Shown here: piece by piece, positions 36,986 to 50,968 of the stretch
Numbering within the stretch: position 1 is the stretch's first letter
Layout: each line of letters opens with the position of its first letter
NCBI RefSeq assembly: GCF_002750855.1
Contig: NZ_NWUC01000001.1
Location: 774,666-838,665 of the forward strand
Direction of reading: 5' to 3'
DNA length: 64,000 nt
Origin: Neopararhizobium haloflavum
GTDB lineage: Bacteria > Pseudomonadota > Alphaproteobacteria > Rhizobiales > Rhizobiaceae
The notes under the pieces: model-generated
What the model was told of the DNA's origin: nothing
What the model saw: only the letters and a program-made list of their open reading frames with translations
Database searches by the model: none
Position numbers and translations under genes: made by a program

Positions 36986-37016
36986 TTGAACCTCAACCGA
37001 CTAGAGGTGTTACTGC
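36986..37016 (+). promoter_or_regulatory. MerR-type promoter, family A site 1 (PCuAC-SCO-DUF411)
   Basis: TTGAAC, a 19-bp spacer holding ACCTC-N9-GAGGT, then TACTGC. The over-long spacer with a dyad is the hallmark of MerR-activated promoters. It lies directly before the PCuAC gene and beside the MerR gene. Confidence 0.7.
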
Positions 37017-37038
37017 GATCGAAACTTGGATGGAAAGC

Positions 37039-37569
37039 ATGACAATAATCCGTTCCGACAGAGCGCAGCTTTGGCTCTATGTCGTCTGCGCCTTGGCGGC
37101 GCCGCTGCAGGCTTCAGCCCAGGAAGAGACGACCCATAGCGCTGAAGGACGCGGCGCTGTGACGGTCGAGCATGCGGAGATCGTGTTGTCACCTTCGCCG
37201 TCCGGAATGGCCGCAGGCTACCTAACGGTGTCGAACAATACCGAGCAGCAAGTCGCGCTGACGTCAGTGGCGACGCCCTCATTCGGACAAGTCTCGCTGC
37301 ATCGCAGCGAAATGAAAGAAGGCATCGCCCGGATGAGGCCGGTGCTGGGGCCGCTTCGTATCCCACAAAACACGGAATTGGTCATGCGACCCGGCGGAAT
37401 CCACTTGATGCTCATGCAACCGGCCCCAGATACGAAGCCGGGCGCGAGGGTTGCACTGGAAGTCGCCTTCGCCGACGGATCGACAAAAACGGTGAGCGCC
37501 ACGGTCCTTGGCTTCGGCGAAAAGCCGACCGATCATCATCACGGTGAGAAAGACGATGTCCCGCGATGA
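37039..37569 (+). CDS. PCu(A)C-type periplasmic copper chaperone
   Basis: About 176 residues with a signal peptide (SDRAQLWLYVVCALAAPLQA) and the DUF461 fold: SPSPSGMAAGYLTVSNN, the His/Met site VSLHRSEMKEGIARMRPV and MRPGGIHLMLMQPAPD. PCuAC carries Cu(I) to the CuA site of cytochrome oxidase together with SCO, whose gene follows with a four-base overlap. A His-rich tail (DHHHGEK) adds metal affinity. An ATG at 37030 is an alternative start. Confidence 0.8.
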   Translation: MTIIRSDRAQLWLYVVCALAAPLQASAQEETTHSAEGRGAVTVEHAEIVLSPSPSGMAAGYLTVSNNTEQQVALTSVATPSFGQVSLHRSEMKEGIARMRPVLGPLRIPQNTELVMRPGGIHLMLMQPAPDTKPGARVALEVAFADGSTKTVSATVLGFGEKPTDHHHGEKDDVPR

Positions 37570-38195
37570 CACTTTCCGGCGTTCGAAAGATACTTTGGGC
37601 CATGGTCGCAGCCACCTCCGTGCTCCTTGCGGCAGGATACGCGGCTCAATGGGAACTGGAGAGGCGAAGCGGTGGGGTTGAGGCCGTGGCCGAAAAGGAA
37701 ATTGCGATCGGTGGTCCGTTTGCGATGAAGGACGTTTCGGGTCGCGAGGTGACCGAGGAAACCTATGCCGGCAAAGGCTGGATGATGTTCATGGGGTTCA
37801 CCAACTGTCCCGACATCTGTCCGACAACCCTTGCCGAGATGTCCGGCTGGCTGCAGGAGCTCGGGTCCGGCGAAGACGACGTCCGCGGTTTCCTGGTGAC
37901 GGTTGATCCGGAGCGAGACACACCTGAAATCCTCGGTCAGTACATGTCGAGTTTTGACGACCGGATCGTCGCGCTTGTCCCAACGCCGGCACAACTCGCG
38001 GCTTTCGCCGACAGCTACAAGGTTTATTACAACAAAGTGCCTTTGGAAGGCGGCGGATACACTATGGACCATACCGCAGGCGTTCTCCTCTTCGACCGAG
38101 CGGGACGATTCAGCGGAACGATCGACCTGCACGAGGACCGTGAGACCGCGCTCGCAAAGATCAGGAACCTCTTGAATAAGGAAACAGATATATGA
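37566..38195 (+). CDS. SCO1/SenC-family copper chaperone
   Basis: 209 residues with an N-terminal anchor (ILWAMVAATSVLLAAGYAAQ) and the SCO thioredoxin fold: GWMMFMGFTNCPDICPTTLA (CPDIC) and the distal His in YTMDHTAGVLLFDRAGRFSG. It helps load CuA or reduces thiols. It overlaps both neighbours by four bases, so PCuAC, SCO and DUF411 are translated as a unit. Confidence 0.85.
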   Translation: MTLSGVRKILWAMVAATSVLLAAGYAAQWELERRSGGVEAVAEKEIAIGGPFAMKDVSGREVTEETYAGKGWMMFMGFTNCPDICPTTLAEMSGWLQELGSGEDDVRGFLVTVDPERDTPEILGQYMSSFDDRIVALVPTPAQLAAFADSYKVYYNKVPLEGGGYTMDHTAGVLLFDRAGRFSGTIDLHEDRETALAKIRNLLNKETDI

Positions 38196-48779: not shown

Positions 48780-50911
48780 CGCGGCCTCCAGCGGAGCAGA
48801 CGCATTGCGTTTGCCGTCACCAGCACTGTTGCCCCGGTATCTGCCAGGATTGCGGGCCAAAGCCCGGTAACGCCGATAACAGTGGTGACCAAGAAAATCG
48901 CCTTCAACCCGAGCGCAATCGTGATGTTCTGACGGATATTGAACATTGTCGTCCGCGAAAGATCGATCATGTCCGGAACGTCAACGACGCGTCCGTGAAG
49001 AGCCGCGGCGTCGCCCGTTTCGAGGGCAACGTCGGTGCCGCCGCCCATCGCAATGCCAATGTCGGCGGCGGCGAGCGCTGGGGCGTCGTTGATGCCGTCG
49101 CCGACCTTGGCGACGACGAGCCCGGCGGCTTGCAATTCTCGTATCACCTTCTGCTTGTCCTCGGGCATCATCTCGGCCCGCACCTCTATGCCGAGCCCGG
49201 CTGCAACGGCTGCCGCCGTCGTGCGGTTGTCACCCGTCAGCATGATGGTCCTGATCCCCTCATCACGCAGACGGGCCAGAGCCTCCTTAGCGTCCGTGCG
49301 GGGTTCGTCGCGGAGCGCGACATAACCGGCGACCTCGCCGTCGACGAGCGCTACGGAAACAGTCTTACCTTGCGCGTTGAGCTCTGCGATTTGGGACACG
49401 ATACTGTCGGACAAATTCGCCCGGCGGCTTGCGGCTTTCGGCGCGCCGACGAAGATTTCGTTGCCACCGACATTGCCTCCCACACCTTCTCCCGGGAACG
49501 CGCTGGCGGCGAACGCCGGGGGAACCGGCGCCTGGACGGCGCGTGCATGGTCGACAAGCGCCACGGCGAGCGGATGGCTGGAACCCTGTTCGAGTGCGGC
49601 CACCATGGAGACAAGGCGATGCTCGCGGCCGTCGGCGGCGAACACGTCGGTCACGCGAGGACGTCCTTCCGTCAGGGTACCGGTCTTGTCGAATGCCACG
49701 GCAGTGACCCTACCCATGCTTTCGAGTACGGCCCCGCCCTTGATCAGGAGGCCGCGCCGTGCTCCGGCCGACAGCCCTGCGGCGATTGCAGCGGGCGTGG
49801 AAATGACGAGCGCGCACGGGCAGCCGATCAGGAGGACCGCAAGTCCCTTGTATATCCATTCCTGCCATGGCTCGCCGGCCGTAAGAGGCGGCACGACGGC
49901 GACCAGCGCCGCGAAGAGGACGACAGCAGGCGTGTAGTAGCTTGAAAAGCGGTCGATGAAGCGTTGCGTCGGAGCTTTGCTTTCCTGCGCCTCCTCAACA
50001 AGCTTCACGACGCGCGCGATCGTGTTGTCCTCTGCCGCCGCGGTGACCCGCACTCGCAAGACGCCGATCGCGTTGATCGTGCCGGCGAAGACGTCGTCGC
50101 CGACCGTTTTCGCCTTGGCGACGCTTTCGCCCGTGACCGGCGCTTCGTCGATCTCGCTCGTACCCTCGACGACGACGCCATCCGCCGGCACCCGGTCCCC
50201 GGGGCGGACGATGACGACGTTCCCGACCTTCAAGCTGGCCGCATCGACACTCCAGGAGGAACCGTCCACCTCCAGAATTGCCGACTTAGGGACGAGCGAG
50301 GCGAGGCCGCGAATGCTGCGACGTGCGCGTGCGGCTGCGATTCCTTCCAGCGCTTCCCCCACGAGAAACAGGAAGACGACCGCCGCGGCTTCCTCCTCCG
50401 CTCCGATTACAACAGCTCCAACGGCGGCGATGGTCATCAGCATCTCGATAGAGAACGGCGTGCCGAAACGCGCCGCGTTAATCGCACGAAAGGCGACCGG
50501 CAATAGCCCGACAGCGAGCGCGGCGAGAAAGGCGGGACCCTCCATGGCGGGGAACAAGCGTCCCGCGACGAAGGCCGACGCCAGCGCAAGGCCGCAGAAG
50601 ACCGTCAAGAGTGTCCTTCTATTGCGCCACCATTCAGCGTCGCCATGTGCGTTTTCGGTGCTTATTCGCTCAGAATGCATCGATGCCGCGCCATCTTCGG
50701 TGATGCCATAGCCGAGGCCCCTGACTTGGCGCTCTACCTTGTCAACGGAAAACCTCTCGCCGTGGCCGACCGTCAGCGTTCCGTTCGTCACCGAGACAGC
50801 GACCTCTCCGATGCCGTCTATCCGCTTGAGCGCCGTCTCGATCTTGGCGGCGCACGAGGCGCAATCCATTCCCGTGATCTTGTATCGGGACGTATGAGCC
50901 ATTGCTTGCAT
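48776..50911 (-). CDS. P1B-type ATPase, ZntA/CadA-like (Zn/Cd/Pb exporter)
   Basis: 711 residues. One N-terminal HMA domain with KITGMDCASCAAKIETALKR; the TGES actuator in DEAPVTGESVAKAK; CPC in VLLIGCPCALVISTPAAIAA at about residue 365; phosphorylation site [13 protein letters not shown] at about 405; and GDGIND. The residues after CPC (STPAAI) are those of Zn/Cd/Pb ATPases rather than copper ones. AGGAG precedes the ATG. It is driven by family A site 5, in line with the MerR regulator at 36491. Confidence 0.9.
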   Translation of the reverse strand: MQAMAHTSRYKITGMDCASCAAKIETALKRIDGIGEVAVSVTNGTLTVGHGERFSVDKVERQVRGLGYGITEDGAASMHSERISTENAHGDAEWWRNRRTLLTVFCGLALASAFVAGRLFPAMEGPAFLAALAVGLLPVAFRAINAARFGTPFSIEMLMTIAAVGAVVIGAEEEAAAVVFLFLVGEALEGIAAARARRSIRGLASLVPKSAILEVDGSSWSVDAASLKVGNVVIVRPGDRVPADGVVVEGTSEIDEAPVTGESVAKAKTVGDDVFAGTINAIGVLRVRVTAAAEDNTIARVVKLVEEAQESKAPTQRFIDRFSSYYTPAVVLFAALVAVVPPLTAGEPWQEWIYKGLAVLLIGCPCALVISTPAAIAAGLSAGARRGLLIKGGAVLESMGRVTAVAFDKTGTLTEGRPRVTDVFAADGREHRLVSMVAALEQGSSHPLAVALVDHARAVQAPVPPAFAASAFPGEGVGGNVGGNEIFVGAPKAASRRANLSDSIVSQIAELNAQGKTVSVALVDGEVAGYVALRDEPRTDAKEALARLRDEGIRTIMLTGDNRTTAAAVAAGLGIEVRAEMMPEDKQKVIRELQAAGLVVAKVGDGINDAPALAAADIGIAMGGGTDVALETGDAAALHGRVVDVPDMIDLSRTTMFNIRQNITIALGLKAIFLVTTVIGVTGLWPAILADTGATVLVTANAMRLLRWRPR

Positions 50912-50937
50912 GACGGTCTCCTGCGGTTGCAGGCCAA

Positions 50938-50968
50938 GCTATAAGACCTCTAGTCGCTAGAGAGGCAA
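50938..50968 (-). promoter_or_regulatory. MerR-type promoter, family A site 5 (Zn/Cd/Pb ATPase)
   Basis: On the minus strand TTGCCT, a 19-bp spacer with CTCTCTAGCGACTAGAGG, then TATAGC, 27 bases before the ATPase start. Confidence 0.75.

Follow-up and report, generated by a model that had tools for sequence, protein, structure and literature searches.

A compact cluster of MerR-type promoter sites beside metal export, copper handling and envelope genes in Neopararhizobium haloflavum

Regulators of the MerR family activate transcription by twisting DNA. Here we analyze a stretch of 64,000 nucleotides from Neopararhizobium haloflavum (contig NZ_NWUC01000001.1, positions 774,666 to 838,665; the window in the following), in which five promoter sites of the MerR type precede genes for metal export, copper handling and envelope enzymes. 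Among described systems, the pbr operon of Cupriavidus metallidurans resembles this locus in its MerR-type sensor PbrR, a promoter with a 19-bp spacer, a P1B ATPase and a predicted prolipoprotein signal peptidase, PbrC (PMC3431237, PMC1526738). Activation by DNA twisting is echoed for the PbrR system, and metal-independent activity was reported when the PpbrA spacer was cut to 18 bp (PMC3431237). In the Pseudomonas CadR/cadA system a related PaCadR operator, ACTCTGTAG-N3-CTACAGGGT, lies between the -35 and -10 boxes and is served by a Cd/Zn sensor; the network reported for PaCadR comprises cadA, transcribed divergently from cadR, and a zinc-ribbon protein (PMC12301328). MerR-type metal regulons have been described as comprising, as a rule, few genes per genome (PMC1526738). 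A third relative is the cluster of Mesorhizobium metallidurans STM 2683 and Mesorhizobium sp. STM 4661, with homologous MerR, LspA, DpaA-like, DsbA, pcuAC and Sco genes and operators of the same class at cadA. Its authors reported induction and compared LspA with PbrC; the shared operator is not described in the parts of their paper at hand (PMC3668242).

Compared with these systems, the window carries five separate sites, where the pbr operon has a PbrR site at PpbrA (PMC3431237, PMC1526738), and it adds genes for DsbA, PpiC, a DpaA-like protein, copper chaperones and an acyltransferase-like protein. Its half-site is CTCTAG instead of the CTGTAG of CadR/cadA. The merR gene of the window is divergent from pcuAC, and the zntA start lies 14 kb away at 50911, so that the ATPase divergon of the pbr/cad type is not found here. 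A literature search for a regulon joining MerR, DpaA, LspA and DsbA did not retrieve this combination in openly accessible papers. What is known is the activation mechanism of the MerR family; what is new is the gene content and the partly plasmid-borne envelope module. We consider it likely that the window holds a clustered, divalent-metal-responsive MerR regulon that joins export, copper handling and duplicated envelope enzymes.

Five promoter sites of one operator class

The initial annotation had proposed five sites, at 36986, 41296, 43210, 43524 and 50938, each with a -35 box, exactly 19 bp and a -10 box around a dyad. Direct reading confirmed all of them at these positions in one ungapped 35-bp layout, with a 19-bp spacer in every case and the dyad within the spacer. 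All five are of the CTCTAG type. For scoring we used a 35-position matrix trained on 85 sites of related loci, none of them from the genome under study; training demanded TTG and TA at fixed places, and these columns hence provide no independent evidence. The sites are as follows.

36984..37018, plus strand: MerR-type promoter 1, -35 at 36986, TTGAAC-19-TACTGC, toward pcuAC-sco-DUF411; matrix score 28.4
41296..41330, both strands: palindromic MerR-type operator, TTGCAC-19-AATACC (41300 on the plus strand, identical pair on the minus strand), between lspA (minus) and the dpaA-like gene (plus); matrix scores 31.6 (plus) and 30.9 (minus)
43208..43242, minus strand: MerR-type promoter 3, -35 at 43240, TTGTCC-19-TAAAGT, toward the HGSNAT-like gene; matrix score 28.5
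43522..43556, plus strand: MerR-type promoter 4, -35 at 43524, TTGAAC-19-TAGAAC, toward dsbA-ppiC-copC-copD; matrix score 43.7
50936..50970, minus strand: MerR-type promoter 5, -35 at 50968, TTGCCT-19-TATAGC, toward the Zn/Cd/Pb ATPase; matrix score 41.4

When the window was searched with ACCTCTAG-N3-CTAGAGGT, the five sites were the five best matches (2, 0, 3, 1 and 2 mismatches in coordinate order, with the next match at 4), and their half-sites pair at 6, 8, 6, 7 and 6 of 8 positions. The site at 41296-41330 is palindromic throughout its 35 bp, with perfect arms of 16 bp. The same -35/-10 pair therefore stands on each strand, one toward lspA and one toward the dpaA-like gene, and the palindrome could fire in both directions. 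The opposite faces of the other four sites score 6.7-10.1 with the matrix, and nothing else in the window scores above 0.1. As a null, 4 Mb of first-order Markov sequence were scanned on both strands, with two hits of at least 5 and none of 8 or more.

The strict motif is rare. With up to 3 mismatches the 4.17-Mb genome contains 10 distinct sites, five of which are those of the window; with up to 2 mismatches five remain, four in the cluster and the fifth beside a second MerR gene. Frequent occurrence at random sites, which the initial annotation had named as one of two results that would speak against it, was thus not seen. The reversed pattern gave 61 sites against 10 for the real one, yet it contains other tetranucleotides and hence is an unfair null. 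A looser, promoter-shaped pattern with up to one mismatch found 10 distinct places: the five sites, one operator each on C33 and C3 (the latter of the CadR type), which are discussed below, and three others taken to be chance. Chance dyads were considered as an explanation of the five sites and rejected on the mismatch ranking, the genome count and the matrix with its Markov null; a motif common throughout the genome was rejected on the same count. The presence of five MerR-type sites of one class is confirmed.

The sites are packed into 14 kb and form a compact cluster rather than the distributed regulon of the first description. They lie among these genes, whose identities had been named correctly, save for the supposed L,D-transpeptidase at 41419..42429.

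36491..36904, minus strand: MerR-family regulator of 137 aa, CadR/PbrR/ZntR-like (Pfam MerR_1/MerR-DNA-bind), the candidate regulator
37039..38650, plus strand: genes for the PCuAC copper chaperone, SCO1/SenC and DUF411 (Pfam PF04314, PF02630, PF04214), apparently one operon
40759..41271, minus strand: LspA, signal peptidase II (TIGR00077 104 bits, over the cut-off of 73.95; Pfam PF01252)
41419..42429, plus strand: DpaA/YafK-like YkuD-fold protein with lipobox LSGC (NF040599, E. coli DpaA alignment, PDB 8ikr)
42442..43182, minus strand: integral-membrane acyltransferase-like protein (HGSNAT_cat; Pfam PF07786, E 1e-70)
43582-44229, plus strand: DsbA-like thioredoxin protein (Pfam, NCBIfam)
about 44219-45079, plus strand: PpiC-type isomerase (Pfam, NCBIfam)
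about 45217-45570, plus strand: CopC (Pfam, NCBIfam)
45573-46436, plus strand: CopD (Pfam, NCBIfam)
47183-48106, minus strand: CDF transporter (TIGR01297 241.5, over cut-off)
48186-48860, minus strand: PEMT/ICMT-type membrane methyltransferase (Pfam)
48776-50911, minus strand: ZntA-like P1B ATPase (PRK11033 792 bits, best model, below the cut-off of 1005; TIGR01512 521.8, over cut-off)

Between the acyltransferase-like and DsbA sites, a remnant resembling a gene for an XRE-type helix-turn-helix protein was noticed by eye at 43243-43500. In G001, a genome of the same genus, the distance between the two sites is about 180 bp shorter than in the window.

The regulator and its metal

The MerR protein encoded at 36491-36904 has its MerR_1 and MerR-DNA-bind winged-helix and dimerisation regions over the Pfam cut-offs. 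Its best NCBIfam model is TIGR02047 (CadR-PbrR, 114.1 bits), and the closest PDB sequence is 5gpe (PbrR691). Cysteines 78, 113 and 121 align with the C79-, C114- and C123-type metal-site positions of 5gpe and CadR, in the ligand numbering of ZntR, CueR and CadR, and a C-terminal H-x2-C-x3-H follows. In an alignment of 94 MerR rows, Cys 121 is present in all 94, the Cys 113 column in 69, and H130 and C133 in 87 each. PbrR is reported to depend on C14, C79 and C134 (PMC3431237); by alignment the window protein shares only the C79-type position of these. With this cysteine pattern, the expected ligand would be Zn(II), Cd(II) or Pb(II).

The initial annotation had called one MerR protein the obvious candidate. 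The product of 36491-36904 is indeed the most likely regulator, but the wording was too strong, since a paralogue on C33 is 67% identical to it, has a nearly identical recognition helix and wing, and possesses an operator of the same class, TTGAACCTCTAGTCACTAGAGCAATTA, facing a cation-efflux family gene. This paralogue might be the main activator of some or all of the five promoters, or share them. In a tree of 76 MerR proteins (137 columns), which is poorly resolved with 20 open forks, the window protein groups with that of G001 and, on a long branch, with the C33 protein (97/92). The two proteins are indistinguishable by operator, and the tree does not settle which of them serves the cluster. 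The C33 operator, however, already has a neighbouring target in the cation-efflux family protein, and promoter 1 lies in the divergent gap between merR and pcuAC. In addition, a close MerR travels with the cluster in G001 (84% identity) and elsewhere, and in G002 and G003, two further genomes of the genus, both the close MerR and any site with up to 2 mismatches are absent. We regard control by the C33 protein as rather unlikely, and keep the cluster's own MerR as the preferred activator.

The copper proteins raise another question. PCuAC, Sco, CopC and CopD are encoded in two of the transcription units, and E. coli DpaA is reported to be inhibited by copper with an IC50 of about 0.1 mM (PMC8263019), so that the cluster might be seen as a copper regulon whose MerR senses Cu(I). 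The window, however, also holds a second MerR operator class, located by copper genes.

53646 (minus), 53702 (plus) and 61953 (minus): CueR-type CCTTCC MerR promoters beside copper ATPases and CopZ
58505-58888: CueR, over its model cut-off

By comparison, the cluster MerR reaches 94.6 on the CueR model, whose cut-off is 147.4, and one of its aligned metal-site cysteines is absent from CueR. ZntA is a conserved target, and the related Mesorhizobium promoters answer Zn and Cd; copper is not among the treatments in the parts of that study at hand (PMC3668242). Sensing of Cu(I) by the cluster MerR is in our view improbable, and a divalent metal the better candidate. Including the CadR-type operator on C3, where a third MerR gene lies about 1.3 kb from the CCCTGTAG operator that faces an HMA/E1-E2 ATPase, the genome holds at least three MerR operator classes: that of the window and C33, the CadR type of C3, and the CCTTCC type of CueR.

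Relatives, plasmids and published expression

In G001 the gene order is largely the same and all five sites are in place although the sequences differ, with scores of 35 (pcuAC), 31 (toward lspA), 19 (toward the dpaA-like gene), 39 (acyltransferase-like), 37 (DsbA) and 33 (ZntA). Of 61 genomes, 36 encode a MerR at or above an identity line of about 46%, and 26 of these have at least one site, compared to one of the 25 others (Fisher p 5e-8); the line was chosen after the list was seen.

We then counted sites scoring at least 10 upstream of homologues in related loci (L048-L140 without L059, plus L170, L173, L175 and L176; L063, L064, L066, L083 and L100 were left out as duplicates or near-copies). 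An alignment counted if it covered at least half of the query and reached a minimum identity, which was 58% for MerR, 35% for ZntA, 45% for CDF and 28% for several others. Such sites precede 9 of 12 DsbA, 14 of 21 ZntA and 5 of 7 acyltransferase-like genes, compared to 275 of 20,000 stretches drawn at random from these loci. They were also found at MerR (16/84, scores 10-19), CDF (1/4), sco (1/13), PAP2 (2/4) and CopA (4/21) genes, where ATPases matched by both the ZntA and the CopA query count in both rows; none was found before 10 PpiC and 18 tglCys1 genes of these loci.

DsbA-like proteins are encoded in 147 and DpaA-like proteins in 149 of 151 sampled genomes of the family, and the island genes therefore look like extra copies; the window's genome itself has two matches for each at the cut-offs used. 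Among the best 30 DsbA loci out of all matches in these genomes, seven of eight island-type loci have a site scoring at least 17 and one scores 4, while the other 22 all score -13 or less and none has a site. The island type was defined by us as at least 57% identity with an alignment starting at residues 1-19, the own locus included; one 57% locus aligned from residue 29 was placed among the 22, and G010 and G020 were also in the matrix training.

Among plasmids, 29 records gave a DsbA match; the nine copies examined from these are all closely preceded by a site (scores 17, 43, 18, 41, 42, 38, 40, 42 and 41). These plasmids were not part of the training, though some of their sites resemble trained ones. 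Four of the nine are typed conjugative. In two Shinella plasmids (L193, L194) the genes for DsbA, PpiC, a DpaA-like protein, an L,D-transpeptidase and LspA stand in a row downstream of one MerR-type operator and adjoin CopC, CopD and a BTLCP gene; in several plasmid copies the DpaA-like gene comes after DsbA and PpiC.

Published expression in the two Mesorhizobium strains (L083, STM 2683; L066, STM 4661) allows the operator class to be compared with metal induction. To place the gene labels of that study on the contigs, we relied on gene order and content rather than locus tags; two placements are tentative, that of the C11 CDF fragment and that of the orf located upstream of cadA. The cadA genes, preceded by sites scoring 38 in STM 2683 and 43 in STM 4661, are induced by Zn (log2 3.07 and 5.32) and Cd (2.2 and 3.38) (PMC3668242, Tables 4-5). 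In STM 2683, zntA (site 39) responds with log2 4.65 to Zn and 3.48 to Cd, and PAP2 (site 35) with log2 1.19 to Zn (PMC3668242). A PAP2 gene is also found near the cluster in the window, a further point of likeness with the pbr system. The lspA genes of the two strains have weak sites (13 and 11); they are induced by Zn (log2 1.64 and 1.85), with Cd values that are not significant (PMC3668242). In STM 4661 a site scoring 23 precedes a zinc-finger gene and, behind it, a zitB-type CDF with log2 1.11 for Zn (PMC3668242). The small zinc-finger protein (CPTC/CPKC; L176 at about 11300-12000) lies between a site of the same class and the CDF, and the newly reported target of PaCadR is likewise a zinc-ribbon protein (PMC12301328). 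Going by these relatives, the promoters of the window would be expected to respond to Zn and Cd.

Several observations weigh against our account. The -10 boxes at 36986 and 41296 are weak (2/6 and 3/6 consensus bases), and the reversed control of the looser pattern gave more matches than the pattern itself (22 vs 11), so that the loose pattern alone is not selective. The window MerR stays below the CadR-PbrR equivalog cut-off (114.1 vs 151.45 bits), and the C33 paralogue carries the same operator class. In the related loci, sites scoring at least 10 precede only 4 of 23 pcuAC and 3 of 24 DpaA-like genes and are absent at 5 of 8 LspA relatives. Among the best 30 DpaA-like loci of the family, 27 have no own site and one of the three sites lies 347 bp upstream; none of the 11 plasmid DpaA-like copies has its own site, nor does the G002 copy, which is 79% identical. 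In the STM clusters the pcuAC, sco, DsbA and DpaA-like genes have no site scoring 8 or more; they have no assignable entry in the tables of PMC3668242, although some entries there (360025, 740027, 740028) are of "unknown function", which makes this absence less than certain. The PAP2 gene of STM 4661 with its strong site (36) is missing from Table 5, and zntA 610026 of the same strain is induced, yet the pattern search found no site there (PMC3668242). The multicopper oxidase/DUF411 block of STM 4661 (L176 at about 16853-19122), which is induced more by Cd than by Zn, also lacks a site of this class (PMC3668242); another regulator is likely for it.

It might be argued from these data that only the ATPase and DsbA sites work, whereas the lspA/dpaA, acyltransferase-like and pcuAC sites were inherited with the island and are weakly used or not used. 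Their scores are lower (28-32 vs 41-44), they include the two weak -10 boxes, and the pcuAC, LspA and DpaA sites are conserved in a patchy manner. Nevertheless, all five are kept in G001 with best-face scores of 31-39 despite sequence differences, and the weak lspA sites of Mesorhizobium still precede a Zn-induced gene (PMC3668242). Such partial use seems doubtful to us, and we favor a regulon that includes all five promoters. A site class that marks every member gene in all relatives was rejected, as the STM strains and most DpaA-like loci lack it. The gene formerly called an L,D-transpeptidase does have its site in the window, as had been noted, but its membership is lineage-specific. The data are best accounted for by a conserved core of ZntA, DsbA and the acyltransferase-like gene, to which lspA, the dpaA-like gene and pcuAC belong in some lineages only.

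Envelope enzymes and the proposed function

The initial annotation had assigned cell-wall crosslinking to the cluster, which does not fit the product of 41419-42429. NF040599 (DpaA/YafK) is its sole NCBIfam family match (219.1 bits, below the cut-off of 365), and it matches PDB 8ikr with an E value of 2.8e-53 and E. coli DpaA (YafK) with 43% identity over 229 aligned columns. The catalytic His/Cys region HG...GC.AMT aligns with both, including the conserved catalytic cysteine. An ordinary crosslinking L,D-transpeptidase was rejected on the basis of this model, the structural match and the alignment. The window protein differs from E. coli DpaA by its sub-cut-off equivalog score and by its lipobox; a regular expression found the lipobox in 23 of 29 homologue rows, some of which repeat one locus. 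DpaA of E. coli severs the link between lipoprotein and peptidoglycan (PMC8263019). Judged by this similarity, the window lipoprotein may cut links between proteins and peptidoglycan. The gene transcribed divergently from it encodes LspA, an enzyme of the class that matures lipoproteins.

The genome holds three copies of lspA. Of the two outside the window, one is located on C3, some 5 kb away from the CadR-type operator. It belongs to a second metal cluster (G000:C3:15343-22357) with lspA, the HMA/E1-E2 ATPase, the MerR gene and the PaCadR-like operator CCCTGTAG-N3-CTACAGGG. LspA is thus found near another MerR operator class as well.

Other features of the window may be mentioned here. Cysteine peptidases of the BTLCP/LapG type are encoded at 39911-40555 and 46561-47169 (plus strand). 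Relatives carry such genes in the island too, as do plasmids; none of the 18 such genes counted has its own site. A phage-type integrase (62290-63714, minus strand) lies beside the contig end, which is also the window end, and the metal region may belong to an integrated element. Farther away are a CBASS-like defence pair of a SMODS nucleotidyltransferase and a SAVED-domain protein (18609-22662), a HipA gene (6565-7872) and a large Strawberry-notch-type helicase (8949-13373).

In the mechanism that we propose, the five sites would act as metal-activated MerR-type promoters. They share an operator class that we read as a CadR/PbrR operator with the variant half-site CTCTAG, and a divalent-metal MerR sensor, most likely that of 36491-36904, would occupy each 19-bp spacer. 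Binding of Zn(II), Cd(II) or Pb(II) would then twist the DNA and render the promoter usable by sigma-70 RNA polymerase, and one dimer on the 41296 palindrome might serve lspA and the dpaA-like gene both ways. The joint output would be threefold: export of divalent metals from the cytoplasm via ZntA and CDF; periplasmic copper handling by PCuAC, Sco, DUF411, CopC and CopD; and a set of envelope enzymes with further genomic copies, namely the DsbA-type oxidoreductase with PpiC, LspA and the DpaA-like lipoprotein, together with the membrane acyltransferase-like protein. The original idea of an envelope and metal regulon thus survives in that one operator class, in relatives and on plasmids, accompanies genes for metal export and for the envelope; crosslinking, a distributed layout and a single obvious MerR do not.

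More tentatively, and as a possibility that we would not yet call probable, the Hyphomicrobiales might possess a mobile, divalent-metal-inducible envelope module. It would place second copies of DsbA, PpiC, LspA and a lipoprotein DpaA-like enzyme, in some lineages also L,D-transpeptidases, under the MerR operator class of the export ATPase. These would act as replacements when metal damages periplasmic cysteine enzymes and the tether between peptidoglycan and outer membrane. In the window, a single symmetric operator would serve the lipoprotein enzyme and its processing peptidase both ways.

One operator class appears to tie metal export to duplicated envelope enzymes. Several genera show this connection, as do plasmids, of which some are typed conjugative. 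The contrast between paralogues, island-type DsbA with the site and other DsbA without it, is experimentally clean. The finding offers a testable reason for the presence of LspA-type peptidases such as PbrC and its relatives in metal clusters, and it suggests that maintenance of the envelope has been selected as part of metal resistance.

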